From Amphibalanus amphitrite (taxonomy: Eukaryota > Arthropoda > Thecostraca > Balanomorpha > Balanidae), in contig NW_024883070.1 of the NCBI RefSeq assembly GCF_019059575.1, positions 62,001 to 126,000 on the forward strand: 64,000 bases of DNA, written 5' to 3'. The notes beneath the pieces are model-generated. The model did no database searches and was not told the origin of the DNA. It saw only the letters and a program-made list of their open reading frames with translations. Below are positions 455 through 56,802 of the stretch, one piece after another. How positions within the stretch are numbered: the stretch's first letter is position 1; each line of letters begins with the position of its first letter. A program made the position numbers and the translations under genes.

Positions 455-570
455 GCCGTGTTATATGACGTCACTACTCACCTGCAGACGGCCTGCGCAG
501 TGCACGTGTTATACGACGTCATTAATCATTTCTGTCTCTATATTATCAGACGTCACTAGTCACTACTCAC
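455..570 (-). repeat. Partial tandem copies of CYP4 exon 5 end plus donor
   Basis: On the minus strand the true junction reads GCAGGCCGTCTACGA|GTGAGT. A second version, GCAGGCCGTCTGCAG then GTGAGTAGTGACG, lies at about 466-500. The intronic stretch GTGTTATAYGACGTC also occurs twice (about 458-472 and 507-521). The arrangement is a short tandem duplication of the exon-intron junction, about 84-90 bp apart, diverged from the real exon. Confidence 0.7.
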
Positions 571-640
571 TCGTAGACGGCCTGCACATAGTCTGTACGA
601 GCTCCATCCTGAGCCTTGATCTGAACGCCCATCGTGGCTT
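571..640 (-). CDS. CYP4 exon 5
   Basis: A 70-bp exon too short for an ORF scan. It starts TTTCAG|AAGCC at 640, so exon 4's final G plus AA makes Glu. It then reads ATMGVQIKAQDGARTDYVQA and VY, ending GA|GTGAGT at 571 (phase 2). CYP4 proteins have C-E-x-A-M-G-x-x-V-x-A-Q followed by YVxAVYE, so the exon fits residue for residue. A partial second copy of its 3' end plus donor lies downstream at about 466-500. The next exon is not found in bases 1-570 and presumably lies outside the window. Confidence 0.9.
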
Positions 641-1018: not shown

Positions 1019-1201
1019 CGCATATGATATCGAGTGTCGCCTTGGTGATGAATGGGAACACGTTCACGCGCTGGCCGCCAGTGTCCTTCAGCTTTGCCAC
1101 CAGAACCTGCGACTGCTCGTTGAACACGTCCATGAACTGGTCCAGAATGGTGAAGTGGAACGCCGGCGTCAGCATCTTGCGCCGCTTGTGCCACTTGGTG
1201 C
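1019..1201 (-). CDS. CYP4 exon 4: helix C (WxxRR) region
   Basis: A 183-bp exon encoding TKWHKRRKMLTPAFHFTILD, QFMDVFNEQSQVLVAKL and FITKATLDIIC. WxxRR contacts a heme propionate in P450s, and R-K-x-L-T-P-x-F-H-F is a CYP4 hallmark. Acceptor TTTCAG|GCACC at 1201; donor TGCG|GTACGG at 1019. Unlike the other exons present, I saw no tandem copy of its junctions. Intron 3, between this exon and exon 3, is about 5.8 kb, nearly all of it a MITE with a Ty3/gypsy element inside. Confidence 0.93.
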
Positions 1202-1816: not shown

Positions 1817-4800
1817 TTACATCTCCTCTATCAGACGCCGCGGCCGTCTCCTCGTCCGCGTCGACCGTCGGAGCGGCGGTTCCTCGGCGAGACGGGACGT
1901 CCCCTGAAGCGGCTGTCGGCCTCCGCTGGGCACCTCGGCGCGACGCTGCCCGGTCGGACCTGAGTTGTCCGATGCACCGCTCCTCTCCGCTAGACACGGT
2001 TCAACAACAGCATACCTCCGGCGAAGGTGGCACCGGTTGCGGTCTACACTGCCGCCATCGTCAAACCGCACACGATACCTCCGGAACGGTAGGACGTCAG
2101 TCACTGTGCCGCACCTCTCCCACCGGCGGGTGAGGACGTCTTGCACCCGTACATGGGTTCCGACTGGGAACTCGGGGAGATCCCGTGCTCGGCTGTCGTA
2201 GCGCTCCTTAGTTTTACGACGGCACTCCTCCCGTCGGTCAGCGAACTCCTCAGGGGGCTGCCGTTTGTAGAGATCAGGGTGTGATGGCAGAGTGTCTCTG
2301 ATCGGTCGTCCGTACACGAGCTGAGCTGGCGACACTCCGCAGCTACCGGGCGTGTTCCAGTGTTGGAGGATCCCTCTCGTCCAGGCGTCCTCGTCCAGTC
2401 TGCACCTGCGAAAGTCCCAGCACCTTCTCAATAGCTTTTTAGCAGCCTTCACTCCAGACTCGGCGAGCCCATTAGATTGTGGATAGTGGGGAGATGATGT
2501 GTGGTGACTGATGCCCCACTTTCTGAGAAAACTTCGGAACTGATATGATGTGAATTCAGTGCCCCCGTCACTCCACAGTGCCTCGGGAACCCCGATTTGT
2601 CGGAAGACATTTAGCAATGCAGACATGACTTTGGTTGTGCCCGAGTGTAAGCCGAGGTATGCTACATGACGCCATCCAGAAAACCCATCCACAACAACAA
2701 GATATTTACCTCCAGCGTGACTTCCAATGTCGACAGTCAGATGCTGAAAGGGTCGTCCTGGAAGCTCGTGCTGGATCAGCGTCTCCCGCTGTTGGGAGGG
2801 GAGCTCACTCTGACAGCGGTCGCACGACTTTGTGACGTGATCGACGTCAGCATTCATTCCTGGCCAGTAGACGATCTGTCTTGCTCTGGAAATTGTCCTT
2901 TCTCTCCCCAGGTGCCCCGCGTGGAGTGTCGCGAGCGTTCTCTTCCGCAGGGATGGGGGTATAACGACCCTGCATCCACAAAGAACGATTCCATCGTCCA
3001 CTGTCAGGCGATCTCGAACTGGCCAGTACCTTTTGACGGCTTCTGGAACCTCTGATTTACTGTCAGGGAAGCCGTTCCGAATGACTTCTGCCAGTAGCTG
3101 GAACTCGTGGTCCGCAGCAGCAGCCTCCCGGACCTCTTTGAGACTGATGTCGACGTCATGGGCCTGGAGTTCACTGATGACGATAGACTGGATGCAGGAA
3201 GTCGTTGCATCCTCTCCACACTCGTCGTCTTCGTTTGGGTGCTCGATCGGGTTCCTAGACAGGGCGTCTGCAGCGCTGTGCTGGGAGGCCGGTACCCATC
3301 TTGCTGAGATTGTCCCAAACTCGCTCATCCGTAACTTGAGACGCTGCAGCCTTGGATTTTCAATTTCGTCTAGCGTCTTGCTATTGAGGATTGGTACGAG
3401 AGGACGATGATCCGTGATTACTTCGATGCTCGGAAGTCCTCCGATGAACAGGCGGCACTTCTGTAGGCCCCAGCATACAGCGAGCGCCTCAAGCTCGATG
3501 GTCGCGTACCGCGTTTCGGCATCACTGAGGAAGCGTGATCCAGCTTGGATGACGTGCCATCGCCCATCCTTGTCAGCTTGTCGCAGAACAAAGCCCAGAC
3601 CCTTCTTGCGACTCGCGTCGGTTGCGAGCATCGTCGGCCTGGTGGGGTCGAAGAAGCCGAGAGTCGGCACCGAAGCAAGGTGTTCCTTCGCTCTCTCGAA
3701 CGCCCGCTGATGGTGCTCTTCCCACAGGAAGGTGGTTCTTGGACTCAGAAGAGAACGAAGCGGCTCCATTAGCTCTGCTACACTGTCGGTAAATGGGGAC
3801 AGCTGGTTGATGAGTCCGAAGAATCCGCGTAAGTCAGAGATGTTACGCGGAGTCGGGAACGCAGATAGAGCTTGAGTCAGTTGCGGGTTTGGCTTGTACC
3901 CCTCTTGTGTCACAATGAAGCCGGCGAACTTTGCGGAGCGTTGAGCCAGTTGGAGCTTCCCCAGGTTGAGGGAAATGCCTCGTTCCTCGCATCGAGACAG
4001 AAACCCCCGAACGTGCTGGATGTGCTCTTCCAGTGTGCTGCTGAAGATGATGACGTCATCTACCACTTTCCGGTAGTTATCGGGCATTCCCTGCAGTGCC
4101 TCGTCCATCCTCCGGTTGTAATGCTCGGAGATCGACGAGACACCATACGGGGCGCGTTTGAAGGCAAATCTCCCGAACGGTGTGATGAAAGTTGTCAGTA
4201 ACCTGCTTTCTTCCGCAAGCGGGCACTGGTGGTATCCCTTGGCAGCATCAACCACTGTGAACCATTTGGCCCTCTTTCCGACAATGGATGCTACTTCTTC
4301 TGCTGGAGTCGGTGATTGATAGCGTTCTCGACGGATGTGTTTGTTCAGCATCGAAAGATCCACGCAAAGCCGGATGCCGCCTCCCTTTTTAGCGCTGACA
4401 ACGATCGGTGCGCACCAGTCAGTCGGAGTCGTCACCGGGAAGATGATGTCTTGGTCCTCAAGCCGTTTCAGCTCCTCTTTCAGTGGGTCACGATACGACA
4501 GTGGTACCCGTCGTGGCGCGGTGACGCAGAATGGCACCGCATCTTCACGGAGATGGATCTTGTACTCCTCTCCTGGCATGCACCGAATGTTGCCATCAAA
4601 CACAGTGGGGAATTCCTGCACGAGGTCTGGGATCTTCGTGGCACATTGCTCCTCTCGGTGCTCAGGAGCGGCTATCTGACCGTTGGTCGTACAGTGAGTG
4701 CTCGGAGTTAGTGTCTCTTCCCTGACCTGGGATGTAGATGGCGGTGCAGCTTGGCGACAGCGCGGTGCGGATTCCGTCCGCACAGATGTCGCCACAAAGC

Positions 4801-6481
4801 GGTCGGGTTGCGTTGTAGATGGCGCTGGCGTGGCCGTGCCGCGCGGCCCTCCGGTCGAGCTTGCTTGATCTTCAAAGACCGGGGTAGCAGTCGTACTGCT
4901 GTCGTCTGGAGCTGCCGGGTGTCTCGAACCAGCGCTGTTAACGTAGGGCGTCGAGGTCGCGCTGTTCATTTGACGCGGGTAGTCCTTTGGAATAATGTTT
5001 AACCGGCGGGTGGTCCTCCATGACATCAGCAGACCCGTGACGCGCGGAAGAATGTGTATGTCGTCATCAACCGTGACGTCACCCAGGGTGATACGAACGG
5101 GAAGAACGCCGATAGACTTGACGGTGGCTCCGTCAGCTGCTTTCGGGTGTTCGTTGGGCGGTTGAAGGTTCTCAGGGAACTCATTCATGTCGTCCAGGAA
5201 CTGGATACCTCCAACACTGATGTCCGCTCCGGTGTCGGGCAGCGCGTCCACATCAGCAGAGTAGTACGCCTCTACGCGTACCCGCACCCTCGGGGCACCC
5301 TGTACCGATGCAGACGCGATGATAGCCGATGTGCTGGGGCTTCGGCGGTCCACGTGATTCGCCGTTTCATCATCCCGCCGGAAACGGACTCGGCCGTACC
5401 CGTCTGGAGACTGCCGTTGGCGACTACGAGAGGCGCGACGATCCCCTGTCGTTGCACGGTGCCGATCGCGGGGAGATGGTGACCGGTACACCTCTCGGGG
5501 CGGCGACGACATGTGCCGACCTCTCGGAGACTGAGGCCGGTCTCGCGGCGGAGATGACAGGCACCGATCACGGAGCGGTGGGGACCGATACCGATCCCGG
5601 GCCGGCGGGGATCGGTACCGTCCGTACGACCCCTCGCGGCTCCGCCGGCCGTCGGTCCTCGACCGGCACACAGCTGCGAAGTGGTCCGGTCCCCGGCAGG
5701 CCCGACACCGCAGCCCGCGGGCGGGGTACTGCTGGCCGGGTCGGTGCGTCCGCCGACCGCAGCCAGTGCAGGCGGCCGGACCGCCACCGGTCCGGGGCGA
5801 CCACACCTGCAGGGCCGACGGGCCGTCCGCAGTGCCGCCGTGCAGCTCCCGTGCGTCGCGAGATGCCGCCTCCTGCGCCCTGCAAACAGTAACAGTGGCC
5901 GACAGAGACAGGTCCGGTGTTGCACACAGACATCGAACGGTCTCTGCAGACCTCAGACCCATAATGATTCTATCCCTTATAAGCGAATCGCGACATTCAG
6001 TGCAAAAATTGCAGCTGCGGGCGAGTTCTCTAAGGGACGTTAAAAAGTCATCAAAGGATTCGCCCTGTTCCTGTACACGTTCGTTGAACTTTTTGCGCTC
6101 AACGACCTCATTGATTTGGCCGTTCGCGTATTTCTCTAGAGCCTCGATGGACTTTCTCACGTCAGTACGATCGGGTCCACTTAGCTCCAGGTTCCGAAGC
6201 ACTCTGATTGTGTCGTCCGTGAGGCAGTCTCGGAGAGCGGCTATCTGGATGCGGGGCTCTGCCCGCTCCAGACCAGACAACAGCACATAATCTTCCCATC
6301 GCTCTCGCCAGACGTGAAATAACTCGCCTCGGTCGCTGGCGATGTCCAGCCTGTCCGGTCGCGCGTGCCGGCCGGCCCACGTCGGGCCAGCTCCTGCAGC
6401 TGGAGCCACGACACCACTCCGCGAAACGTCCACAGTCTCACCGTTATGAGACATCGCCGTCACTCGTCGGTTCCGCAACAC
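1817..6481 (-). CDS. Gag-Pol polyprotein of Ty3/gypsy element 1
   Basis: A single frame of about 1,550 codons. The Gag part has a capsid-like helical region followed by an arginine-rich region and cysteine/histidine clusters of the nucleocapsid type. Then come an aspartic protease with the DTGA signature, a reverse transcriptase, an RNase H, and an integrase with the HHCC zinc region and catalytic core, followed by a basic tail. Gag and Pol appear fused in one frame, as in several animal Ty3/gypsy lineages. The internal methionine before SHNGETV is a likely start. No envelope gene is seen. Confidence 0.92.
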   Translation of the reverse strand: MLRNRRVTAMSHNGETVDVSRSGVVAPAAGAGPTWAGRHARPDRLDIASDRGELFHVWRERWEDYVLLSGLERAEPRIQIAALRDCLTDDTIRVLRNLELSGPDRTDVRKSIEALEKYANGQINEVVERKKFNERVQEQGESFDDFLTSLRELARSCNFCTECRDSLIRDRIIMGLRSAETVRCLCATPDLSLSATVTVCRAQEAASRDARELHGGTADGPSALQVWSPRTGGGPAACTGCGRRTHRPGQQYPARGLRCRACRGPDHFAAVCRSRTDGRRSREGSYGRYRSPPARDRYRSPPLRDRCLSSPPRDRPQSPRGRHMSSPPREVYRSPSPRDRHRATTGDRRASRSRQRQSPDGYGRVRFRRDDETANHVDRRSPSTSAIIASASVQGAPRVRVRVEAYYSADVDALPDTGADISVGGIQFLDDMNEFPENLQPPNEHPKAADGATVKSIGVLPVRITLGDVTVDDDIHILPRVTGLLMSWRTTRRLNIIPKDYPRQMNSATSTPYVNSAGSRHPAAPDDSSTTATPVFEDQASSTGGPRGTATPAPSTTQPDRFVATSVRTESAPRCRQAAPPSTSQVREETLTPSTHCTTNGQIAAPEHREEQCATKIPDLVQEFPTVFDGNIRCMPGEEYKIHLREDAVPFCVTAPRRVPLSYRDPLKEELKRLEDQDIIFPVTTPTDWCAPIVVSAKKGGGIRLCVDLSMLNKHIRRERYQSPTPAEEVASIVGKRAKWFTVVDAAKGYHQCPLAEESRLLTTFITPFGRFAFKRAPYGVSSISEHYNRRMDEALQGMPDNYRKVVDDVIIFSSTLEEHIQHVRGFLSRCEERGISLNLGKLQLAQRSAKFAGFIVTQEGYKPNPQLTQALSAFPTPRNISDLRGFFGLINQLSPFTDSVAELMEPLRSLLSPRTTFLWEEHHQRAFERAKEHLASVPTLGFFDPTRPTMLATDASRKKGLGFVLRQADKDGRWHVIQAGSRFLSDAETRYATIELEALAVCWGLQKCRLFIGGLPSIEVITDHRPLVPILNSKTLDEIENPRLQRLKLRMSEFGTISARWVPASQHSAADALSRNPIEHPNEDDECGEDATTSCIQSIVISELQAHDVDISLKEVREAAAADHEFQLLAEVIRNGFPDSKSEVPEAVKRYWPVRDRLTVDDGIVLCGCRVVIPPSLRKRTLATLHAGHLGRERTISRARQIVYWPGMNADVDHVTKSCDRCQSELPSQQRETLIQHELPGRPFQHLTVDIGSHAGGKYLVVVDGFSGWRHVAYLGLHSGTTKVMSALLNVFRQIGVPEALWSDGGTEFTSYQFRSFLRKWGISHHTSSPHYPQSNGLAESGVKAAKKLLRRCWDFRRCRLDEDAWTRGILQHWNTPGSCGVSPAQLVYGRPIRDTLPSHPDLYKRQPPEEFADRREECRRKTKERYDSRARDLPEFPVGTHVRVQDVLTRRWERCGTVTDVLPFRRYRVRFDDGGSVDRNRCHLRRRYAVVEPCLAERSGASDNSGPTGQRRAEVPSGGRQPLQGTSRLAEEPPLRRSTRTRRRPRRLIEEM

Positions 6482-6842: not shown

Positions 6843-6998
6843 TATGTATCGGTTGTCATAGTTACCCGTGCTGGTGACCAGTCCGGAGTATATATTGCAC
6901 AGTTTGTTTATCGGTTGCCATAGTTACCAGTGCTGGTGGGCAGACCGGAGTCTATATTGCACAGTTTGTTGATTGGTTGCCATAGTTATTAGTTACCG
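6843..6998 (-). repeat. Tandem copies of CYP4 exon 3 end plus donor
   Basis: Three versions of one junction follow each other at a spacing of 62-69 bp. The real one ends CTCACCAGCACCG|GTAACT at 6997. The copies are CCCACCAGCACTGGTAACTA (around 6930) and GTCACCAGCACGGGTAACTA (around 6868). Each is followed by the intronic TATGGCAACCRAT. So both the last exon bases and the donor are repeated inside intron 3. Confidence 0.85.
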
Positions 6999-7087
6999 GT
7001 GCTGGTGAGCAGGCCGGTGCCCAGCCACGGCTCCAGTGACTCGTACTCCTCTCCTTTCTGGATATGCTGGTTACTGCTGAAAATCAC
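6997..7087 (-). CDS. CYP4 exon 3
   Basis: A 91-bp exon with 30 codons plus one base, reading [20 protein letters not shown] then [13 protein letters not shown]4 proteins have S-x-x-x-I-x-K followed by the highly conserved PWLGxGLLxSxGxKW. Acceptor TTTGCAG|GTG at 7087; donor ACCG|GTAACT at 6997. The split glycine codon (G|GC) is completed by exon 4, rebuilding TSTGTKWHKRR exactly as the family requires. The last part of the exon and its donor recur twice just downstream (6843-6998). Confidence 0.92.
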
Positions 7088-10402: not shown

Positions 10403-11456
10403 GTGCAAATAGATATTTTAATTGATCATAAGCAGCTCAAGTCACTCCGGAAACTCCAATCATAGGTCCGATCATAAAACCTCATAGTCCAACGGCCGGT
10501 CATAAAGAGGCCTGACTGCAGGCCTGGTTCGGCCATTGAGCCCATGATCGGGCCCATCCCATCAATAACGCCGCAGCAGCCCCCCCCCCCTCCTCCCCCC
10601 CCCCGCAGACGGACAGTCGAGGTCACGCTAAGGTCGTACTGATTTCCCGTGCGGCGGTCGCCCCCCTCCCCCTCCCTCAGCTGGTGATTCTGAAAGTCAT
10701 GCCTGACAAACAGTCATGGGGCCATGAGACGCAGCCCAGGCTCCGAGCTCTGATATAACCCAGAGCTTCGAGGTGACCATGAGCCCTGCTCCGTACATTG
10801 GCAAACATAGCGTAAAAATAGCATGTTACGCCAGAACTGTAGCTTCTTAGATAAAGATTACCTAATTCTGTTTTGGCTAACGATTCAAGTTTTCATTTTT
10901 ATGCTGCTGAGACATACAAACAAGCATCGTTTTAGTGGACGTACCTAATTACCTCTTCACTTCCCTGTCCCGAGTCTTTTTATGTTACTCAATGAACTGT
11001 TCATTTGTCTTATTGTTCGCACTATTATGTTAAATCTGATCTAACCTACAGAAAGGTTACGACAAGATGCCTCTGTTTACTGTTTACCCAGCCGTCGGGT
11101 TCAACAGTTGTTTTCTCGGTCACCATTGTTACTTCTGTTATGACTAGCGACCTTATGTTTTTTTTTTTTTTGCCTTTGAGCCTCCAGAAGTCTCGGAATT
11201 CAAGAAATAGTAGTGTTTTTCTCACATAGAAAGAAAACCGACAACGTTTATCTTATAGCTAGCAGTGAATACTGAATAGCAGCACATGAAGAAGTGTAAT
11301 CCGATAAATAAGAAGATTGGCCTTCCTTATGGGAGCGCAATTTGAGGATAACAACCTTTTTCGGGATAACGTCCCTAACCGGGGCATTCCAAAACCACCA
11401 TTCTGCATCCGTCATAATGACTTATAAACCACGGCCTTACCTCTGCTGCCTCGGGA
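10403..11456. other. CYP4 intron 2 sequence without recognised gene
   Basis: Contains a C-rich run near 10575-10605 and a T-run near 11158-11171. I see no gene, transposon end or RNA. Confidence 0.5.
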
Positions 11457-11660
11457 GTGTTGATAAGCACGTATAATAGCCCCACGCCGAGTTGGAGGTG
11501 GAAAGCGGAAGCCACCCTTACCTCTGCCGCCTGGAGACTATATATAGTCCACGCCGAGTTGGAGGTGGAATACCCTCATCTCGGCAGCCTGGGTACTATA
11601 TATAGTCCACGCAGGGTTGGAGGTGGAAGCAGAGGTGGAACTTTTTGTTTTTCATTGGGG
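11457..11660 (-). repeat. Dispersed copies of the CYP4 exon 2 junction unit
   Basis: Three diverged copies of the unit found next to exon 2: CACGCCGAGTTGGAGGTGGAA followed by CTCTGCCGCCTGGAGACTATATATAG, and similar. On the minus strand each reads like the end of exon 2 (a F-x-L-Q-x-G then PEAAE relic) with a GTRAGG donor. They lie 5 kb downstream of exon 2, still inside intron 2. Confidence 0.7.
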
Positions 11661-12719: not shown

Positions 12720-13436
12720 CTGAACGTACACCGATTTTCAGCTAAATCGAAAGACCCCGCCGTTTACCGTTAAAATGTTAGTTGGCCGTTAATTCGTTAA
12801 CGGTGCAAAATACCACCCCAAAGAGGCACATTTTCGGAATAAGCGCATCGAGGAGGCCCTGTACACCGATTTTCAGCCAAATCGAAAGACCCCGTCGTTT
12901 CCCGTTAAAATGTTGATTGGCCGTTTACTCGTTAACGGTGCAAAATATCACCCCAAAGAGGCACATTTTCGGAATCAGCGCATCGAGGAGGCCCTGTATA
13001 CCGATTTTCAGCTAAATCGAAAGACCCCGCCGTTTCCCATTAAAATGTTAATTGGTCGTTAACTCGTTAACGGTGCAAAATACCACCACAAAGAGGTACT
13101 TTTTCGGAATCAGCGCATCGAGGAGGCCCTGTATACCGATTTTCAGCCAAATCGAAAGAACCGGCCGTTTCCCATTAAATGTTAATTGGTCGTTAAATCG
13201 GTTACGGTGCAAAATACCACCCCAAAAAGGTACATTTTCGGAATCAGCACATCGAGGAGGCCCTGTACACCGATTTTCAGCTAAATCGAAAGACCCCGCC
13301 GTTTCCCGCTAAAATGTTAATTGGTCATTAACTCGTTAACGGTGCAAAATACCACCCCAAAGAGGCATATTTTCGGAATCAGCGCATCGAGGAGGCTCTG
13401 GATACCGATTTTCAGCCAAATTGAAAGACCCCGAAT
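12720..13436. repeat. 135-bp minisatellite, about 5.3 copies
   Basis: The mark CCGATTTTCAG recurs at 12731, 12866, 13001, 13136, 13270 and 13405, so the period is 135 bp (once 134). Each unit carries CCCCGCCGTTTCCCGTTAAA and CATCGAGGAGGCCCTG. Units are roughly 90% alike by eye. It lies in CYP4 intron 2 and I see no coding signal. Confidence 0.93.
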
Positions 13437-14935: not shown

Positions 14936-14988
14936 TCCGCATGTGGGTGGAAGCCACCCTTAACTCGGCGGCCTGAGGACTGTTACTA

Positions 14989-15265
14989 GCCATTTTCACG
15001 ACTTGCTATCCGGCGAGTGCACCTAATTTGACCAAATCTGCACCTAATCTCTTTAACAGCAAATATCTTCATTTTATGAATTTATTTCAGTGTTTTAATC
15101 GATTATGCTCTCTGATAATATGACTAAGCAGGCATATAAGCAATTAGTCAGCAGCCCTAGCTGATAGCTACGAAGAGACACACTGAACCTGATTTGACCA
15201 AATCTGCACCTTATCTGTACCAGATGTGCACCAAATGTGTACCAGATGGCCGTCGTGCAAACGGC
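14989..15265. mobile_element. 277-bp MITE inserted into an exon-2-derived repeat unit
   Basis: Imperfect inverted ends GCCATTTTCACGACTTGC and, inverted, GCCGTTTGCACGACGGCC. Inside each end is ACCTAATTTGACCAAATCTG or its near copy. Units of the exon 2 array flank it on both sides (14936-14988 and from 15266), so it landed inside the array. Related pieces lie at 61486-61607 and 63358-63519. Confidence 0.75.
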
Positions 15266-16890
15266 CTGTATACCTATAGCCCCACGCCGAGTTGGAGGTG
15301 GAAGCCACCCTTACCGCGGCGGCCTGGGGCTGTATATAGTCCGGTGGAAGCCCCCCCTCACCTCGGTGGCCCCGGGGCTGTATATAGTCCGGTGGACCTC
15401 ACCCTCACCTCGGCGGCCTCGGGGCTGTATACTGTATACCTATAGCCCACGCCGAGTTGGAGGTGGAAGTCACCCTCACCTCGGCGGCCTCGGGACTGTA
15501 TATAGTCCGGTGGGAGCCACCCTCACCTCGGGGCTGTATATAGTCCGGTGGAAGCCCCCCCCACCTCGGCGGCCTCGGGGCTGTATATAGTCCGGTGGTA
15601 GCCACTCTCACCTCGGCGGCCTGAGGACTGTATACTGTATACCTATAGCCCACGCCGAATTGGAGATAGAAGCTACCCTTACCTCGGCGGCCTGGGGGCT
15701 GTATATAGTCCGGTGGACCTCGGCGGCCTCGGGACTGTATAGTCCGGTGGAAGCCCCCCTCACCTCGGGGCTGTATATAGTCCGTGGAAGTCACCCTTAC
15801 CTCGGCGGCCTGAGGGCTGTATATAGTCCGGTGGAAGCCACCCTTACCTCGGCGGCCTGAGGGCTGTATATAGTCCGGTGGACCTCGGCGGCCTCGGGGC
15901 TGTATATAGTCCGGTGAAAGTGACCCTTACCTCGGCGGCCTGAGGGCTGTATATAGTCCGGTGGACCTCGGCGGCCTCGGGGCTGTATATAGTCCGGTGA
16001 AAGTGACCCTTACCTCGGCGGCCTGAGGGCTGTATATAGTCCGGTGGACCTCGGCGGCCTCGGGGCTGTATATAGTCCGGTGAAAGTGACCCTTACCTCG
16101 GCGGCCTGAGGGCTGTATATAGTCCGGTGGACCTCGGCGGCCTCGGGGCTGTATATAGTCCGGTGAAAGTGACCCTTACCTCGGCGGCCTGAGGGCTGTA
16201 TATAGTCCGGTGGACCTCGGCGGCCTCGGGGCTGTATATAGTCCGGTGAAAGTGACCCTTACCTCGGCGGCCTGAGGGCTGTATATAGTCCGGTGGACCT
16301 CGGCGGCCTCGGGGCTGTATATAGTCCGGTGAAAGTGACCCTTACCTCGGCGGCCTGAGGGCTGTATATAGTCCGGTGGACCTCGGCGGCCTCGGGGCTG
16401 TATATAGTCCGGTGAAAGTGACCCTTACCTCGGCGGCCTGAGGGCTGTATATAGTCCGGTGGACCTCGGCGGCCTCGGGGCTGTATATAGTCCGGTGAAA
16501 GTGACCCTTACCTCGGCGGCCTGAGGGCTGTATATAGTCCGGTGGACCTCGGCGGCCTCGGGGCTGTATATAGTCCGGTGAAAGTGACCCTTACCTCGGC
16601 GGCCTGAGGGCTGTATATAGTCCGGTGGACCTCGGCGGCCTCGGGGCTGTATATAGTCCGGTGAAAGTGACCCTTACCTCGGCGGCCTGAGGGCTGTATA
16701 TAGTCCGGTGAAAGTGACCCTTACCTCGGCGGCCTGAGGGCTGTATATAGTCCGGTGGAAGCCACCCTCACCTCGGCGGCCTGAGGGCTGTATATAGTCC
16801 GGTGGACCTCACCCTCACCTCGGCGGCCTGAGGGCTGTATACTGTATACCTATAGCCCACGCCGAATTGGAGATAGAAGCTACCCTCACC
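15266..16890 (-). repeat. Donor array: tandem copies of the CYP4 exon 2 / intron 2 junction
   Basis: In gene orientation each unit reads roughly CTATATACAGYCC, then GAGGCCGCCGAG|GTRAGGGT. That is the last codons of exon 2 (SPEAAE) and its donor. Longer units keep the upstream exon part as well (a TTCGGCGTGGGCTATAGG-like stretch that parallels QLGVDY). From about 15881 to 16700 there is an 83-bp higher-order period made of a 34- and a 49-bp subunit, roughly ten copies. I count over twenty good donors before the real exon is reached at 16890. The ORFs seen here are relics of this structure. Confidence 0.9.
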
Positions 16891-16993
16891 TCGGCGGCCT
16901 CGGGACTGTTGATGACCACGTAGTCCACACCGAGCTGCAGGTGGAAAAAGCCGCGGTACTGACGCACGTAGTGCATCAGCATGTCCAGCAGGT
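16890..16993 (-). CDS. CYP4 exon 2
   Basis: A 104-bp exon that contributes two bases plus 34 codons, including DLLDMLMHYVRQYRG, FFHLQLGVDYVVIN and SPEAAE. This matches the helix A / beta-1 region of CYP4 proteins, which ends in a P-E-x-A/V-E motif. The acceptor is TTCTCAG|ACCTG at 16993 and the donor is GCCGAG|GTGAGG at 16890. The exon lies between two tandem arrays made from its own ends: acceptor-like units on the upstream side (16989-17825) and donor-bearing units on the downstream side (15266-16890). Confidence 0.88.
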
Positions 16994-17825
16994 CTGAGAA
17001 CACGGAAAAAACAGGAGGTCTGAGAACACGGAAAAACAGGGGTGAGAAGACGGAAAAACAGGTTTGAAAACAAGGAAAAAGTGGGCCTGCCAAAACAGAG
17101 AAACAGGGGGTAGGGAAATACGGAAAACAGGAATTCTGCAAAAACGGAAAAAACGGATCAAAGAACACGAGAATACAGGTGTGTGAGCACGGGAAAACAG
17201 GTCTGAGAACACGGGAAAACAGGTCTGAGAATACGGGAAAACAGGTGTGTGAGCACGGGAAAACAGGTCTGAGAACAAGGGAAACAGGGATGAGAAAACG
17301 GGAAAACAGGTCTGAGAACACGGAAAAAACAGGGGTGAGAACACAGGAAAATAGGTCTGAAAACACGGAAAAACAGGAAGACTGCCAAAACAGAGAAACA
17401 GGAGGGAGGGAAACATGAAAAAACAGGAATTCTGCCAAAAGGAAAAAACGGGTCTGAGAACATGAGAAAACAGGTGTGTGAGCACGGGAAAACAGGTCTG
17501 AGAACACGCGAAAACAGGTCTGAAAACACGGAAAAACAGGAGGAAGGCAAGCACGGAAATACAGAAGGTCTGCTAATTCGGAACTACAGGAGGTCTGAGA
17601 ATATGGAAATACAGTATGTCTGCGAACAGAGGAACGGGTCTTCGAACACGGAACACGGCAGGTCTAAGAAAACGAGAAAACAGGAGGTCTGCAAACACGG
17701 AAATACAGGTCTGAGAGCACGGAAATGCCTACAGGTGTGAGAACACGGAAAAGCAAGAAGTCTTCAAACACCGGAAAACACGAGGTTGGCAAACACGGAA
17801 AACAGGAGGGCTGCCGACACGGGAA
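16989..17825 (-). repeat. Acceptor array: tandem copies of the CYP4 intron 1 / exon 2 junction
   Basis: The real exon 2 acceptor reads TTTTTTCCGTGTTCTCAG|ACCTG. Upstream in gene orientation the same 20-25-bp string, TTTTCCCGTGTTCTCAGACC and variants, is repeated over about 840 bp, roughly thirty degenerate units of which about ten keep GTTCTCAGACC. Each intact unit therefore holds a pyrimidine tract, a CAG and the first exon bases. The Phe/Cys-rich frames it yields are not genes. Confidence 0.9.
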
Positions 17826-17839
17826 ACATAATGTCTGCT

Positions 17840-19301: not shown

Positions 19302-19456
19302 TCACTGACCTGTGACCTGCCAGGGGACCAGCAGCGTGTGTCCCAGCACCGGGTACACGGGTTTGGGTCCGGGCAGGTGTCACTGACCTGTGACCTGCCA
19401 GGGGACCAGCAGCGTGTGTCCCAGCACGGGTAGACGGGTTTGGGTCCGGGCAGGTT
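19302..19456 (-). repeat. 78-bp tandem duplication of CYP4 exon 1 end plus donor
   Basis: Two adjacent units, 19302-19379 and 19380-19456, each contain the hinge codons from PGPKPV to QVT and the donor ACAG|GTCAGTG. They differ at only a few positions; one is the missing G near 19428 that breaks the frame of the upstream unit. The gene therefore offers two donors for exon 1. Confidence 0.9.
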
Positions 19457-19602
19457 TTTGATCTGCTGTGGTGGACGGAGAGCCCGCGTGACCAGCAGCG
19501 CCACGGGCAGCAGCAGCGCCAGCAGCAGCAGCACGGGCGGCGTCAGCAGCGACCAGCAGCGGCCAGCAGCCGGCCCAGCAGGCCAGCAGACACCTCCAGC
19601 AT
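19310..19602 (-). CDS. CYP4 exon 1: membrane anchor and proline hinge
   Basis: This exon encodes the ER signal anchor, with a run like LLTPPVLLLLALLLPVALLV, followed by basic TRALRPPQQIK, then the hinge NLPGPKPVYP and VLGHTLLVPWQVT. The ATG at 19602-19600 sits in a strong Kozak context (GCCGCCATGC), so I chose it. Read from that ATG, the frame is not continuous: the anchor is in a different frame from the ATG, and VLGHTLLVPW is offset again. The second offset comes from one missing G near 19428, in the upstream copy of a 78-bp tandem duplication (19302-19456); the downstream copy reads PGPKPVYPVLGH intact. The breaks may be assembly indels in GC-rich sequence or real decay. Donor: ACAG|GTCAGTG at 19310, repeated at 19388. 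Splicing to exon 2 restores an Asp codon (G|AC). Confidence 0.75.
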
Positions 19603-33927: not shown

Positions 33928-36900
33928 GTACACACCCCTCTGAGACCGCACAGACACCGCCATAACTCGGCGACACGCGGTACACAGTACACAGTACACA
34001 GTACACACCCCTCTGAGACAGCGCAGACGCCGCCATAACTCGGCGACACGCGGTACACAGTACACAGTACACAGTACACACCCCTCTGAGACAGCGCAGA
34101 CGCCACCATAACTCGGCGACACGCGGTACACAGTACACAGTACACAGTACACACCCCTCTGAGACAGCGCAGACGCCGCCATAACTCGGCGACACGCGGT
34201 ACACAGTACACAGTACACAGTACACACCCCTCTGAGACAGCGCAGACGCCACCATAACTCGGCGACACGCGGTACACAGTACACAGTACACACCCCTCTG
34301 AGACCGCACAGACACCGCCATAACTCGGCGACACGCGGTACACAGTACACAGTACACATCCCTCTGAGACCGCACAGACACCGCCATAACTCGGCGACAC
34401 GCGGTACACAGTACACAGTACACACCCCTCTGAGACCGCACAGACACCGCAATAACTCGGCGCCACGCGGTACACAGTACACAGTACACACTCCTCTGAG
34501 AGAGCACAGACGCCGCCATAACTCGGCGACACGCGGTACACAGTACACAGTACACACCCCTCTGAGACCGCACAGACACCGCCATAACTCGGCGACACGC
34601 GGTACACAGTACACCTTACACACCCCTCTGAGACCGCACAGACGCCGCCATAACTCGGCGACACGCGGTACACAGTACACAGTACACAGTACACACCCCT
34701 CTGAGACAGCGCAGACGCCACCATAACTCGGCGACACGCGGTACACAGTACACAGTACACAGTACACACCCCTCTGAGACCGCGCAGACGCCGCCATAAC
34801 TCGGCGACACGCGGTACACAGTACACAGTACACACCCCTCTGAGACCGCACAGACGCCGCCATAACTCGGCGCCACGCGGTACACAGTACACAGTACACA
34901 CCCCTCTGAGACCGCACAGACGCCGCCATAACTCGGCGACACGCGGTACACAGTACACAGTACACACCCCTCTGAGACCGCACAGACACCGCCATAACTC
35001 GGCGCCACGCGGTACACAGTACACAGTACACACCCCTCTGAGACCGCACAGACGCCGCCATAACTCGGCGCCACGCGGTACACAGTACACAGTACACACC
35101 CCTCTGAGACCGCACAGACGCCGCCATAACTCGGCGACACGTGGTACACAGTACACAGTACACACCCCTCTGAGACCGCACAGACACCGCCATAACTCGG
35201 CGACACGCGGTACACAGTACACAGTACACACCCCTCTGAGACCGCACAGACACCGCCATAACTCGGCGACACGCGGTACACAGTACACAGTACACACCCC
35301 TCTGAGACCGCACAGACACCGCCATAACTCGGCGCCACGCGGTACACAGTACACAGTACACACCCCTCTGAGACCGCACAGACACCGCCATAACTCGGCG
35401 CCACGCGGTACACAGTACACAGTACACACCCCTCTGAGACCGCACAGACGCCGCCATAACTCGGCGCCACGCGGTACACAGTACACAGTACACACCCCTC
35501 TGAGACCGCACAGACGCCGCCATAACTCGGCGACACGTGGTACACAGTACACAGTACACACCCCTCTGAGACCGCACAGACGCCGCCATAACTCGGCGAC
35601 ACGCGGTACACAGTACACAGTACACAGTACACACCCCTCTGAGACCGCCCAGACACCGCCATAACTCGGCGCCACGCGGTACACAGTACACAGTACACAC
35701 CCCTCTGAGACCGCACAGACGCCGCCATAACTCGGCGACACGCGGTACACAGTACACAGTACACACCCCTCTGAGACAGCACAGACACCGCCATAACTCG
35801 GCGACACGCGGTACACAGTACACAGTACACACCCCTCTGAGACCGCACAGACACCGCCATAACTCGGCGACACGCGGTACACAGTACACAGTACACACCC
35901 CTCTGAGACCGCACAGACACCGCCATAACTCGGCGACACGCGGTACACACAGTACACAGTACACACTCCTCTGAGACCGCACAGACACCGCCATAACTCG
36001 GCGCCACGCGGTACACAGTACACAGTACACACCCCTCTGAGACCGCACAGACACCGCCATAACTCGGCGACACGCGGTACACAGTACACAGTACACACCC
36101 CTCTGAGACCGCACAGACACCGCCATAACTCGGCGACACGCGGTACACAGTACACAGTACACACCCCTCTGAGACCGCACAGACACCGCCATAACTCGGC
36201 GACACGTGGTACACAGTACACAGTACACACCCCTCTGAGACCGCACAGACACCGCCATAACTCGGCGACACGCGGTACACAGTACACAGTACACACCCCT
36301 CTGAGACCGCACAGACGCCGCCATAACTCGGCGCCACGCGGTACACAGTACACAGTACACACCCCTCTGAGACCGCACAGACGCCGCCATAACTCGGCGA
36401 CACGCGGTACACAGTACACAGTACACACCCCTCTGAGACCGCACAGACGCCGCCATAACTCGGCGACACGCGGTACACAGTACACAGTACACACCCCTCT
36501 GAGACCGCACAGACACCGCCATAACTCGGCGACACGCGGTACACAGTACACAGTACACACCCCTCTGAGACCGCACGGACACCGCCATAACTCGGCGACA
36601 CGTGGTACACAGTACACAGTACACACCCCTCTGAGACCGCACAGACGCCGCCATAACTCGGCGACACGCGGTACACAGTACACAGTACACACCCCTCTGA
36701 GACAGCACAGACACCGCCATAACTCGGCGCCACGCGGTACACAGTACACAGTACACACCCCTCTGAGACCGCACAGACACCGCCATAACTCGGCGACACG
36801 TGGTACACAGTACACAGTACACACCCCTCTGAGACCGCACAGACACCGCCATAACTCGGCGACACGCGGTACACAGTACACAGTACACACCCCTCTGAGA

Positions 36901-37789
36901 CCGCACAGACGCCGCCATAACTCGGCGACACGCGGTACACAGTACACAGTACACACCCCTCTGAGACCGCACAGACACCGCCATAACTCGGCGCCACGCG
37001 GTACACAGTACACAGTACACACCCCTCTGAGACAGCACAGACACCGCCATAACTCGGCGACACGCGGTACACAGTCCACAGTACACACCCCTCTGAGACC
37101 GCACAGACGCCGCCATAACTCGGCGACACGCGGTACACAGTACACAGTACACACCCCTCTGAGACCGCACAGACGCCGCCATAACTCGGCGACACGCGGT
37201 ACACAGTACACAGTACACACTCCTCTGAGACCGCACAGACACCGCCATAACTCGGCGACACGCGGTACACAGTACACAGGACACACCCCTCTGAGACCGC
37301 ACAGACGCCGCAATAACTCGGCGCCACGCGGTACACAGTACACAGTACACACCCCTCTGAGACCGCACAGACGCCGCCATAACTCGGCGACACGCGGTAC
37401 ACAGTACACAGTACACACCCCTCTGAGACCGCACAGACGCCGCCATAACTCGGCGACACGCGGTACACAGTACACAGTACACACCCCTCTGAGACCGCAC
37501 AGACGCCGCCATAACTCGGCGACACGCGGTACACAGTACACAGTACACACTCCTCTGAGAGAGCACAGACGCCGCCATAACTCGGCGACACGCGGTACAC
37601 AGTACACAGGACACACCCCTCTGAGACCGCACAGACGCCGCCATAACTCGGCGACACGCGGTACACAGTACACAGTACACACCCCTCTGAGACAGCACAG
37701 ACGCCGCCATAACTCGGCGACACGCGGTACACAGTACACAGTACACACTCCTCTGAGACCGCACAGACGCCGCCATAACTCGGCGACAC

Positions 37790-40700
37790 GCGGTACACAG
37801 TACACAGTACACACCCCTCTGAGACCGCACAGACACCGCCATAACTCGGCGCCACGCGGTACACAGTACACAGTACACAGTACACACCCCTCTGAGACCG
37901 CACAGACGCCGCCATAACTCGGCGTCACGCGGTACACAGAACACAGTACACAGTACACACCCCTCTAAGACCGCACAGACGCCGCCATAACTCGGCGCCA
38001 CGCGGTACACAGTACACAGTACACACCCCTCTGAGACCGCACAGACACCGCCATAACTCGGCGACACGCGGTACACAGTACACAGTACACACCCCTCTGA
38101 GACAGCACAGACGCCGCCATAACGCGGCGACACGCGGTACACAGTACACAGTACACACCCCTCTAAGACCGCACAGACACCGCCATAACTCGGCGACACG
38201 CGGTACACAGTACACAGTACACACCCCTCTGAGACCGCACAGACGCCGCCATAACTCGGCGACACGCGGTACACAGTACACAGTACACACCCCTCTGAGA
38301 CCGCACAGACACCGCAATAACTCGGCGCCACGCGGTACACAGTACACAGTACACACCCCTCTGAGACCGCACAGACGCCGCCATAACTCGGCGACACGCG
38401 GTACACAGTACACAGTACACAGTACACACTCCTCTGAGACCGCACAGACGCCGCCATAACTCGGCGACACGCGGTACACAGTACACAGTACACACCCCTC
38501 TGAGACCGCACAGACGCCGCCATAACTCGGCGACACGCGGTACACAGTACACAGTACACATCCCTCTGAGACCGCACAGACACCGCCATAACTCGGCGAC
38601 ACGCGGTACACAGTACACAGTACACAGTACACACCCCTCTGAGACAGCACAGACGCCGCCATAACTCGGCGACACGCGGTACACAGTACACAGTACACAC
38701 CCCTCTGAGACAGCACAGACGCCGCCATAACTCGGCGACACGCGGTACACAGTACACAGTACACACCCCTCTGAGACCGCACAGACGTCGCCATAACTCG
38801 GCGACACGCGGTACACAGTACACAGTACACAGTACACACCCCTCTGAGACCGCATAGACGCCGCCATAACTCGGCGACACGCGGTACACAGTACACAGTA
38901 CACACTCCTCTGAGACCGCACAGACACCGCCATAACTCGGCGACACGCGGTACACAGTACACAGTACACACCCCTCTGAGACCACACAGACACCGCCATA
39001 ACTCGGCGACACAGTACACAGTACACAGTACACACCCCTCTGAGACCGCACAGACGCCGCCATAACTCGGCGACACGCGGTACACAGTACACAGTACACA
39101 GTACACACCCCTCTGAGACAGCACAGACGCCGCCATAACTCGGCGACACGCGGTACACAGTACATAGTACACACCCCTCTGAGACAGCACAGACGCCGCC
39201 ATAACTCGGCGACACGCAGTACACAGTACACAGTACACACCCCTCTGAGACCGCACAGACACCACCATAACTCGGCGCCACGCGGTACACAGTACACAGT
39301 ACACACCCCTCTGAGACCGCACAGACACCGCCATAACTCGGCGACACGCGGTACACAGTACACAGTACACAGTACACACCCCTCTGAGACAGCACAGACG
39401 CCGCCATAACTCGGCGACACGCGGTACACAGTACACAGTACACACCCCTCTGAGACCGCACAGACGCCGCCATAACTCGGCGACACGCGGTACACAGTAC
39501 ACAGTACACAGTACACACCCCTCTGAGACAGCACAGACGCCGCCATAACTCGGCGACACGCGGTACACACAGTACATAGTACACACCCCTCTGAGACAGC
39601 ACAGACGCCGCCATAACGCGGCGACACGCGGTACACAGTACACAGTACACACCCCTCTGAGACCGCACAGACGCCGCCATAACTCGGCGACACGCGGTAC
39701 ACAGTACATAGTACACACCCCTCTGAGACAGCACAGACACCGCCATAACTCGGCGACACGCGGTACACAGTACACAGTACACAGTACACACCCCTCTGAG
39801 ACAGCACAGACGCCGCCATAACTCGACGCCACGCGGTACACAGTACACAGTACACACCCCTCTGAGACCGCACAGACACCGCCATAACTCGGCGACACGC
39901 GGTACACAGTACACAGTACACATCCCTCTGAGACCGCACAGACACCGCCATAACTCGGCGACACGCGGTACACAGTACACAGTACACAGTACACACCCCT
40001 CTGAGACAGCACAGACGCCGCCATAACTCGGCGCCACGCGGTACACAGTACACAGTACACACCCCTCTGAGACCGCACAGACGCCGCCATAACTCGGCGA
40101 CACGCGGTACACAGTACACAGTACACACCCCTCTGAGACAGCACAGACGCCGCCATAACTCGGCGACACGCGGTACACAGTACACAGTACACACCCCTCT
40201 GAGACCGCACAGACGTCGCCATAACTCGGCGACACGCGGTACACAGTACACAGTACACAGTACACACCCCTCTGAGACCGCATAGACGCCGCCATAACTC
40301 GGCGACACGCGGTACACAGTACACAGTACACACCCCTCTGAGACCGCACAGACGCCGCCATAACTCGGCGACACGCGGTACACAGTACACAGTACACAGT
40401 ACACACCCCTCTGAGACAGCACAGACGCCACCATAACTCGGCGACACGCAGTACACAGTACACAGTACACACCCCTCGGAGACCGCACAGACACCGCCAT
40501 AACTCGGCGACACGCGGTACACAGTACACAGTACACACCCCTCTGAGACCGCACAGACACCGCCATAACTCGGCGACACGCGGTACACAGTACACAGTAC
40601 ACACCCCTCTGAGACCGCACAGACGCCGCCATAACTCGGCGACACGCGGTACACAGTACACAGTACACACCCCTCTGAGAGACAGCACAGACACCGCCAT

Positions 40701-43700
40701 AACTCGGCGACACGCGGTACACAGTACACAGTACACACTCCTCTGAGACAGCACAGACACCGCCATAACTCGGCGACACGCGGTACACAGTACACAGTAC
40801 ACACCCCTCTGAGACCGCACAGACACCGCCATAACTCGGCGCCACGCGGTACACAGTACACAGTACACACCCCTCTGAGACAGCACAGACGCCGCCATAA
40901 CTCGGCGACACGCGGTACACAGTACACAGTACACACCCCTCTGAGACCGCACAGACGCCGCCATAACTCGGCGACACGCGGTACACAGTACACAGTACAC
41001 ACCCCTCTGAGACAGCACAGACGCCGCCATAACTCGGCGACACGCGGTACACAGTACACAGTACACACCCCTCTGAGACCGCACAGACGCCGCCATAACT
41101 CGGCGACACGCGGTACACAGTACACAGTACACAGTACACACCCCTCTGAGACCGCCCAGACGCCGCCATAACTCGGCGACACGCGGTACACAGTACACAG
41201 TACACACCCCTCTGAGACCGCACAGACACCGCCATAACTCGGCGCCACGCGGTACACAGTACACAGTACACACCCCTCTGAGACCGCACAGACGCCGCCA
41301 TAACTCGGCGACACGCGGTACACAGTACATACACACCCCTCTGAGACCGCACAGACGCCGCCATAACTCGGCGACACGCGGTACACAGTACACAGTACAC
41401 AGTACACACCCCTCTGAGACCGCACAGACACCGCCATAACTCGGCGTCACGCGGTACACAGTACACAGTACACAGTACACACCCCTCTGAGACCGCACAG
41501 ACGCCGCCATAACTCGGCGACACGTGGTACACAGTACACAGTACACACCCCTCTGAGACCGCACAGACGCCGCCATAGCTCGGCGTCACGCGGTACACAG
41601 TACACAGTACACAGTACACACCCCTCTGAGACCGCACAGACGCCGCGCATAACTCGGCGACACACAGTACACAGTACACAGTACACACCCCTCTGAGACC
41701 GCACAGACACCGCCATAACTCGGCGACACGTGGTACACAGTACACAGTACACACCCCTCTGAGACCGCACAGACACCGCCATAACTCGGCGCCACGCGGT
41801 ACACAGTACACAGTACACAGTACACACCCCTCTGAGACCGCACAGACGCCGCCATAACTCGGCGTCACGCGGTACACAGAACACAGTACACAGTACACAC
41901 CCCTCTAAGACCGCACAGACGCCGCCATAACTCGGCGCCACGCGGTACACAGTACACAGTACACACCCCTCTGAGACCGCACAGACACCGCCATAACTCG
42001 GCGACACGCGGTACACAGTACACAGTACACACCCCTCTGAGACAGCACAGACGCCGCCATAACGCGGCGACACGCGGTACACAGTACACAGTACACACCC
42101 CTCTAAGACCGCACAGACACCGCCATAACTCGGCGACACGCGGTACACAGTACACAGTACACACCCCTCTGAGACCGCACAGACGCCGCCATAACTCGGC
42201 GACACGCGGTACACAGTACACAGTACACACCCCTCTGAGACCGCACAGACACCGCAATAACTCGGCGCCACGCGGTACACAGTACACAGTACACACCCCT
42301 CTGAGACCGCACAGACGCCGCCATAACTCGGCGACACGCGGTACACAGTACACAGTACACAGTACACACTCCTCTGAGACCGCACAGACGCCGCCATAAC
42401 TCGGCGACACGCGGTACACAGTACACAGTACACACCCCTCTGAGACCGCACAGACGCCGCCATAACTCGGCGACACGCGGTACACAGTACACAGTACACA
42501 TCCCTCTGAGACCGCACAGACACCGCCATAACTCGGCGACACGCGGTACACAGTACACAGTACACAGTACACACCCCTCTGAGACAGCACAGACGCCGCC
42601 ATAACTCGGCGACACGCGGTACACAGTACACAGTACACACCCCTCTGAGACAGCACAGACGCCGCCATAACTCGGCGACACGCGGTACACAGTACACAGT
42701 ACACACCCCTCTGAGACCGCACAGACGTCGCCATAACTCGGCGACACGCGGTACACAGTACACAGTACACAGTACACACCCCTCTGAGACCGCATAGACG
42801 CCGCCATAACTCGGCGACACGCGGTACACAGTACACAGTACACACTCCTCTGAGACCGCACAGACACCGCCATAACTCGGCGACACGCGGTACACAGTAC
42901 ACAGTACACACCCCTCTGAGACCACACAGACACCGCCATAACTCGGCGACACAGTACACAGTACACAGTACACACCCCTCTGAGACCGCACAGACGCCGC
43001 CATAACTCGGCGACACGCGGTACACAGTACACAGTACACAGTACACACCCCTCTGAGACAGCACAGACGCCGCCATAACTCGGCGACACGCGGTACACAG
43101 TACATAGTACACACCCCTCTGAGACAGCACAGACGCCGCCATAACTCGGCGACACGCAGTACACAGTACACAGTACACACCCCTCTGAGACCGCACAGAC
43201 ACCACCATAACTCGGCGCCACGCGGTACACAGTACACAGTACACACCCCTCTGAGACCGCACAGACACCGCCATAACTCGGCGACACGCGGTACACAGTA
43301 CACAGTACACAGTACACACCCCTCTGAGACAGCACAGACGCCGCCATAACTCGGCGACACGCGGTACACAGTACACAGTACACACCCCTCTGAGACCGCA
43401 CAGACGCCGCCATAACTCGGCGACACGCGGTACACAGTACACAGTACACAGTACACACCCCTCTGAGACAGCACAGACGCCGCCATAACTCGGCGACACG
43501 CGGTACACACAGTACATAGTACACACCCCTCTGAGACAGCACAGACGCCGCCATAACGCGGCGACACGCGGTACACAGTACACAGTACACACCCCTCTGA
43601 GACCGCACAGACGCCGCCATAACTCGGCGACACGCGGTACACAGTACATAGTACACACCCCTCTGAGACAGCACAGACACCGCCATAACTCGGCGACACG

Positions 43701-45670
43701 CGGTACACAGTACACAGTACACAGTACACACCCCTCTGAGACAGCACAGACGCCGCCATAACTCGACGCCACGCGGTACACAGTACACAGTACACACCCC
43801 TCTGAGACCGCACAGACACCGCCATAACTCGGCGACACGCGGTACACAGTACACAGTACACATCCCTCTGAGACCGCACAGACACCGCCATAACTCGGCG
43901 ACACGCGGTACACAGTACACAGTACACAGTACACACCCCTCTGAGACAGCACAGACGCCGCCATAACTCGGCGCCACGCGGTACACAGTACACAGTACAC
44001 ACCCCTCTGAGACCGCACAGACGCCGCCATAACTCGGCGACACGCGGTACACAGTACACAGTACACACCCCTCTGAGACAGCACAGACGCCGCCATAACT
44101 CGGCGACACGCGGTACACAGTACACAGTACACACCCCTCTGAGACCGCACAGACGTCGCCATAACTCGGCGACACGCGGTACACAGTACACAGTACACAG
44201 TACACACCCCTCTGAGACCGCATAGACGCCGCCATAACTCGGCGACACGCGGTACACAGTACACAGTACACACCCCTCTGAGACCGCACAGACGCCGCCA
44301 TAACTCGGCGACACGCGGTACACAGTACACAGTACACAGTACACACCCCTCTGAGACAGCACAGACGCCACCATAACTCGGCGACACGCAGTACACAGTA
44401 CACAGTACACACCCCTCGGAGACCGCACAGACACCGCCATAACTCGGCGACACGCGGTACACAGTACACAGTACACACCCCTCTGAGACCGCACAGACAC
44501 CGCCATAACTCGGCGACACGCGGTACACAGTACACAGTACACACCCCTCTGAGACCGCACAGACGCCGCCATAACTCGGCGACACGCGGTACACAGTACA
44601 CAGTACACACCCCTCTGAGAGACAGCACAGACACCGCCATAACTCGGCGACACGCGGTACACAGTACACAGTACACACTCCTCTGAGACAGCACAGACAC
44701 CGCCATAACTCGGCGACACGCGGTACACAGTACACAGTACACACCCCTCTGAGACCGCACAGACACCGCCATAACTCGGCGCCACGCGGTACACAGTACA
44801 CAGTACACACCCCTCTGAGACAGCACAGACGCCGCCATAACTCGGCGACACGCGGTACACAGTACACAGTACACACCCCTCTGAGACCGCACAGACGCCG
44901 CCATAACTCGGCGACACGCGGTACACAGTACACAGTACACACCCCTCTGAGACAGCACAGACGCCGCCATAACTCGGCGACACGCGGTACACAGTACACA
45001 GTACACACCCCTCTGAGACCGCACAGACGCCGCCATAACTCGGCGACACGCGGTACACAGTACACAGTACACAGTACACACCCCTCTGAGACCGCCCAGA
45101 CGCCGCCATAACTCGGCGACACGCGGTACACAGTACACAGTACACACCCCTCTGAGACCGCACAGACACCGCCATAACTCGGCGCCACGCGGTACACAGT
45201 ACACAGTACACACCCCTCTGAGACCGCACAGACGCCGCCATAACTCGGCGACACGCGGTACACAGTACATACACACCCCTCTGAGACCGCACAGACGCCG
45301 CCATAACTCGGCGACACGCGGTATACAGTACACAGTACACAGTACACACCCCTCTGAGACCGCACAGACACCGCCATAACTCGGCGTCACGCGGTACACA
45401 GTACACAGTACACAGTACACACCCCTCTGAGACCGCACAGACGCCGCCATAACTCGGCGACACGTGGTACACAGTACACAGTACACACCCCTCTGAGACC
45501 GCACAGACGCCGCCATAGCTCGGCGTCACGCGGTACACAGTACACAGTACACAGTACACACCCCTCTGAGACCGCACAGACGCCGCGCATAACTCGGCGA
45601 CACACAGTACACAGTACACAGTACACACCCCTCTGAGACCGCACAGACACCGCCATAACTCGGCGACACG
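37790..45670. repeat. 3,940-bp higher-order tandem duplication in the satellite
   Basis: About 37790-41730 and 41730-45670 carry the same order of about 58 variant monomers. Shared private marks include ACACAGAACACAG at 37935 and 41875, ATAACGCGGCGACACGC at 38121 and 42061, and CCATAGCTCGGCGTCACG at 41574 and 45514. By eye the copies differ at very few places, for example GTACACAGTAC at 41383 against GTATACAGTAC at 45323. Shorter echoes: about 45445-45885 against 46981-47421 (offset 1,536), and 50388-50600 against 51110-51322 (offset 722). Confidence 0.9.
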
Positions 45671-56760: not shown

Positions 56761-56802
56761 TAATTCTGGCGACGAGGATCAGTGATCAGTGATCAGTGAT
56801 CA

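Follow-up and report, generated by a model that had tools for sequence, protein, structure and literature searches.

The window analysed in this study, a 64,000-nucleotide stretch of Amphibalanus amphitrite contig NW_024883070.1, carries on its minus strand the 5' part of a CYP4V-like P450 gene. Exon 1 (19388..19602) runs from a candidate ATG to a phase-1 donor (CACAG|GTCAGTGA) and is followed on the same strand by the 104-bp exon 2 (16890..16993; DLLDMLMHYVRQYRGFFHLQLGVDYVVINSPEAAE), exon 3 (6997..7087), exon 4 (1019..1201) and exon 5 (571..640), with exons 3 and 4 matching human CYP4V2 by tblastn (57% and 56%, respectively). Exons were called from intron phases, splice sites and tblastn with a CYP4V2 probe. 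When joined, exons 2-5 matched the Pfam p450 family (E 3.1e-22), with CYP4B1 as the best solved structures; their frames are open, their phases consistent and their splice sites canonical, and the match to CYP4 extends over about 150 residues. The gene is accordingly predicted to be a cytochrome P450 nearest to CYP4 members, whereas placement in the CYP4V subfamily is a lead only.

The donor phase of exon 1 agrees with the exon 2 acceptor. When exon 1, its frame breaks disregarded, was joined to exon 2 and a portion of exon 3, Pfam returned no match; support for exon 1 therefore comes from weak tblastn similarity, position and intron phase. As sequenced, the exon 1 frame is broken, apparently by two single-base shifts, at the second of which a downstream tandem copy (19302-19380) has a G that is missing from the first copy. 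A decaying pseudogene, in which the tandem arrays described below grew once splicing had escaped selection, would explain the broken frame and the duplicated copy that keeps the missing base. This reading is very improbable given the intact frames, phases, splice sites and CYP4 similarity of exons 2-5, and the exon 1 shifts may themselves be sequencing or assembly errors.

Elsewhere in the window, a 1554-codon open frame lies in P450 intron 3 (1817-6481, minus strand), and the similarity of a 300-aa piece of it to reverse transcriptase and RNase H domains would fit a Ty3/gypsy-like retrotransposon. A 1385-codon open frame at 56800-60957 (plus strand), a 300-aa piece of which matches RNase H and integrase zinc-binding domains, could be a second retrotransposon. 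At 33987-51588, a 66-bp unit forms a 17.6-kb satellite (261 copies by TRF, 92% matches) with GTACACA runs and strong strand asymmetry. An Rfam scan of the whole window returned no match.

Arrays flanking exon 2

Upstream of exon 2, an array at approximately 16989..17826 (minus strand) is composed of 22-25-bp units, each made up of a polypyrimidine tract, an AG and 5-8 bases from the start of exon 2. TRF resolved it as a 22-bp unit repeated 33 times (16989-17752) and a 25-bp unit (17494-17822). The 27-bp segment comprising the real acceptor and five exon bases (CCTGTTTTTTCCGTGTTCTCAG|ACCTG) has an exact second copy at 17333-17307, with a score of 54 where the best of 300 dinucleotide shuffles reached 32. 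These repeats and the exact junction copy bear out the original prediction of an acceptor array at this place. Its count of "dozens" of acceptors was generous: strong sites are numerous, but they account for about 18 of the 28 AGs in the array. Under a simple weight matrix, nine of the 28, counting the real acceptor itself, match or surpass its score, leaving eight array acceptors of equal or greater strength. Array acceptors at 17086 and 17135 outscore the real site, with a margin of roughly 1-2 bits, and exon 2 would gain a stop-free in-frame extension from several upstream acceptors; for these two reasons alternative acceptor use may occur. The exon 2 frame is open across most of the array. 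As evidence of coding this was rejected, since long open stretches occur in all three frames, which points to the pyrimidine-rich composition as their explanation.

Downstream of exon 2, the donor-side array (15265..16889, minus strand) contains units of 71, 47 and 36 bp, lengths that were obtained by splitting 15250-16889 at every donor-like site. The full 71-bp unit consists of 8 bp of intron and a copy of the last ~63 bp of exon 2, and the 47- and 36-bp units are deletion derivatives of it. A period of 83 bp (13.6 copies at 15675-16810) was found by TRF, together with periods of 47 and 94 bp. Ten successive 83-bp higher-order copies (47+36) at 15848-16677 are identical and show a recently expanded, homogenised core. 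Twenty-two donors equal or exceed the real donor in score, 21 of them array copies, and the density of strong donors is ~13 per kb in the array vs. 0.14 per kb elsewhere. An open in-frame extension was sought for each of the 21 extra strong donors and found for none, every one being frameshifted or stopped; a coding role for them was rejected, and the result fits their being normally unused.

The exonic origin of the donor-side units was examined by matching them to exon 2 outside the shared last 21 bases, with 1000 shuffles for each unit. The units at 15479, near 11570 and near 11628, and the distal unit, scored 36, 40, 32 and 38 against shuffle maxima of 22, 28, 24 and 33, respectively, whereas the units at 16889 and 15682 match the exon more weakly (24 against maxima of 22 and 24). 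BLAST gave E values of 4.6e-10 and 1.6e-9. The full donor-side unit is thereby shown to derive from exon 2.

Two relics lie beyond the array on the same strand: an isolated one at 14956..14984 (86% over 29 bp, E 1.2e-4) and a group of three units at 11433..11640 (76% over 70 bp, E 1.6e-9). The most distal unit (11433-11508) retains exon sequence that is absent from the core (FHLQLGV...YVLINTPEAAE|GTAAGG). Its CYP4-like translation made it a candidate for a second real exon, which was rejected: it has no usable acceptor directly upstream and aligns as the array's edge unit. Most simply read, the donor array formerly extended to about 11.4 kb before insertions broke it up. Between the relics, a 135-bp unit is repeated 5.3 times (91%) at 12726-13433. 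The donor array had thus been correctly located and correctly described as holding more than twenty donors, as the TRF periods and the 21 array donors attest; its extent had been drawn too short, given the relics, and its units, said to copy the last exon codons and the donor, do copy the donor but take in far more of the exon, together with eight intron bases.

With 21 donors and eight acceptors as strong as the real sites under the simple weight matrix, the arrays could be thought to regulate exon 2 splicing, the competing sites slowing or redirecting it towards alternative exon ends or decoy pairing and lowering mRNA output. The open frame through most of the acceptor array, in which some upstream acceptors would add in-frame residues, also speaks for regulation. 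We nevertheless consider it improbable: none of the extra donors has an open extension, composition accounts for the open acceptor-array frame, the ten exact 83-bp copies resemble recent turnover more than a maintained arrangement, and published lancelet repeats of this kind apparently leave splicing undisturbed (PMC3087553, PMC3902484). The decoy and alternative-end roles offered in the original prediction gain no support here, the extra donors all being closed in frame, though some upstream acceptors would be open.

Junction-spanning copies elsewhere in the gene

Only exon 2 had been named as carrying arrays, yet the donors of exons 1, 3 and 5 also carry junction-spanning copies, all on the minus strand. 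At the exon 1 donor (19302..19455), two 78-bp copies contain the end of exon 1 and 8 bp of intron (TRF, 97% matches) and are identical at 48 of 48 positions across the junction. The exon 3 donor (6847..7017) is covered by about three units of 62-69 bp, each with ~21 bp of exon and ~41-48 bp of intron (TRF, 62 bp repeated 2.3 times, 90%; score 41 vs. a shuffle maximum of 27). At the exon 5 donor (470..588), two copies 89 bp apart contain ~18 bp of exon and ~71 bp of intron (score 40 vs. a shuffle maximum of 23). Just downstream of this last repeat, an 11-bp repeat (CCGACGTCGGC; ~10 and ~8 copies) occupies 201-429.

A copy was counted as junction-spanning when it covered 5 or more bases both of exon and of intron and outscored all 300 shuffles. 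Five of the nine junctions in the window carry such copies (the exon 2 acceptor and the donors of exons 1, 2, 3 and 5), and the repeat units differ among the five, being unrelated. The same 300-shuffle search found no junction-spanning copy at the exon 3 acceptor, the exon 4 acceptor or the exon 4 donor, and the highest-scoring match at the exon 5 acceptor (score 21, p 0.013) fails to cross the junction. Among control positions elsewhere in the window, 2.6% passed when the arrays were left out and 7.3% when they were kept; inside the gene's own introns the figure was 4.4%. Binomial probabilities for five of nine against these rates (1.5e-6, 2e-4 and 1.7e-5, respectively) overstate the evidence, as do those at lower score thresholds (2.1e-5 or less), because positions are non-independent, the junctions all come from one gene and the search started from two positives. 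Additionally, a detection bias operates: at a junction the retained exon copy helps to reveal an old duplication, whereas one within an intron is harder to spot.

The window is rich in other tandem arrays, including the 17.6-kb satellite and several intronic minisatellites, and the arrays of the P450 gene could be ordinary intronic minisatellites that adjoin exon edges by chance, with no tie to splice junctions. This possibility is already disfavoured and we regard it as quite improbable, since the units hold exon sequence and span five of nine junctions vs. a few percent of positions elsewhere, and since ~63 bp of exon 2 recur in the full donor-side unit.

Relation to lancelet mirages

Tandem repeats across exon-intron boundaries, at both 5' and 3' boundaries, have been described as "mirages" in a few lancelet genes (Adh3, globins, PGBD5 and troponin C), where splicing was reported or inferred to be normal (PMC3087553, PMC3902484). 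Length polymorphism, germline or somatic, is a further trait of mirages. The view that the structure at exon 2 is without precedent has accordingly to be given up, as these repeats already show boundary-spanning tandem duplications at both edge types (PMC3087553, PMC3902484). The same features occur in the P450 gene: repeat units span the exon-intron boundary at five junctions, both boundary types are affected (the exon 2 acceptor and the exon 2 donor), and a homogenised core of ten identical 83-bp copies is accompanied by the exon-like distal unit at 11433-11508. By analogy we infer membership in the lancelet mirage phenomenon, and the P450 arrays are probably best described as a further case of these known repeats, unusually abundant here.

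The closest parallels are the globin mirages of BflGb6 and BflGb9 (PMC3087553), which likewise consist of boundary-spanning units with splice-site copies and have a homogenised core and divergent edges. BflGb6 is affected at the acceptor boundary and BflGb9 at the donor boundary, both types being found here too, and the distal unit at 11433-11508 resembles the "exclusion of cluster boundaries" of BflGb6 (PMC3087553). The globin mirages differ in having 150-160-bp units in few copies, with the two boundaries coming from different genes (PMC3087553), whereas the P450 arrays have 22-89-bp units in up to ~30 copies and, within a single gene, affect five junctions, among them both edges of one exon. 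Adh3 mirages, as summarised from Canestro et al. 2002 in PMC3087553, share short boundary-spanning units (10-72 bp) and a reported length instability. In PGBD5, imperfect tandem repeats of 60 bp and 108 bp take in splice sites belonging to two exons of that gene; they differ in copy number (2-7) and in involving two exons, and the gene model there is based on predicted splice sites (PMC3902484). Since the published 5' and 3' cases fall in different globin genes (PMC3087553) or in different exons of PGBD5 (PMC3902484), the involvement of both edges of one exon may be a new detail. A search of the open-licence literature for the same structure outside lancelets found none; besides the lancelet papers it returned only broader studies of repeats or of how introns are gained. 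The comparison with related species was drawn from published work.

A likeness also exists to the tandem genomic duplications around AGGT through which introns are gained, in that there too the duplication carries an AG|GT site (e.g. PMC4974935); the idea is credited to Rogers 1989 in PMC3087553. The P450 case differs in that its introns pre-exist and are lengthened by the copies, with no new intron indicated.

Origin and wider meaning of the arrays

Most probably the arrays arose passively, as DNA was duplicated, and are not a splicing device. We hold with good confidence that they are selectively tolerated minisatellites of the mirage kind, seeded at junctions and neutral in their effect, a reading that agrees with the third option of the original prediction and is supported by the exon-derived, junction-spanning units. 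A short tandem duplication would first copy an exon edge together with its splice site. The exon-proximal site is retained at every array and all extra sites lie on the intron side; such a duplication would be tolerated because intron-side copies leave transcripts that still use the proximal site unchanged. Exon definition should favour an exon as short as the 104-bp exon 2, and the spliceosome would presumably keep pairing its exon-proximal acceptor and donor. Added copies would then be removed with the intron and be near neutral, with drift in array length to follow as unequal exchange or slippage lengthens or shortens the array. Loss of internal segments could have reduced the donor-side units from 71 to 47 to 36 bp, and homogenisation of the core would leave exon-like units surviving at the array edges. 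We infer this neutral mode of growth, under which no regulation takes place and the array survives because splicing shields it from selection acting on the protein.

Of these results, it is the junction excess that merits attention at the scale of the genome. Five junctions of this one gene are affected, two of them the ends of a single exon, which makes it a clear test case for whether junctions attract duplication, for how splicing passes over tens of sites of equal strength and for whether such arrays seed new introns. It is conceivable, though on balance unlikely, that splice junctions are hot spots of tandem duplication throughout this genome, through a process tied to transcription, splicing or the base composition of exon edges; many genes would then carry junction-spanning arrays, and their introns would grow outward from the exon edges.
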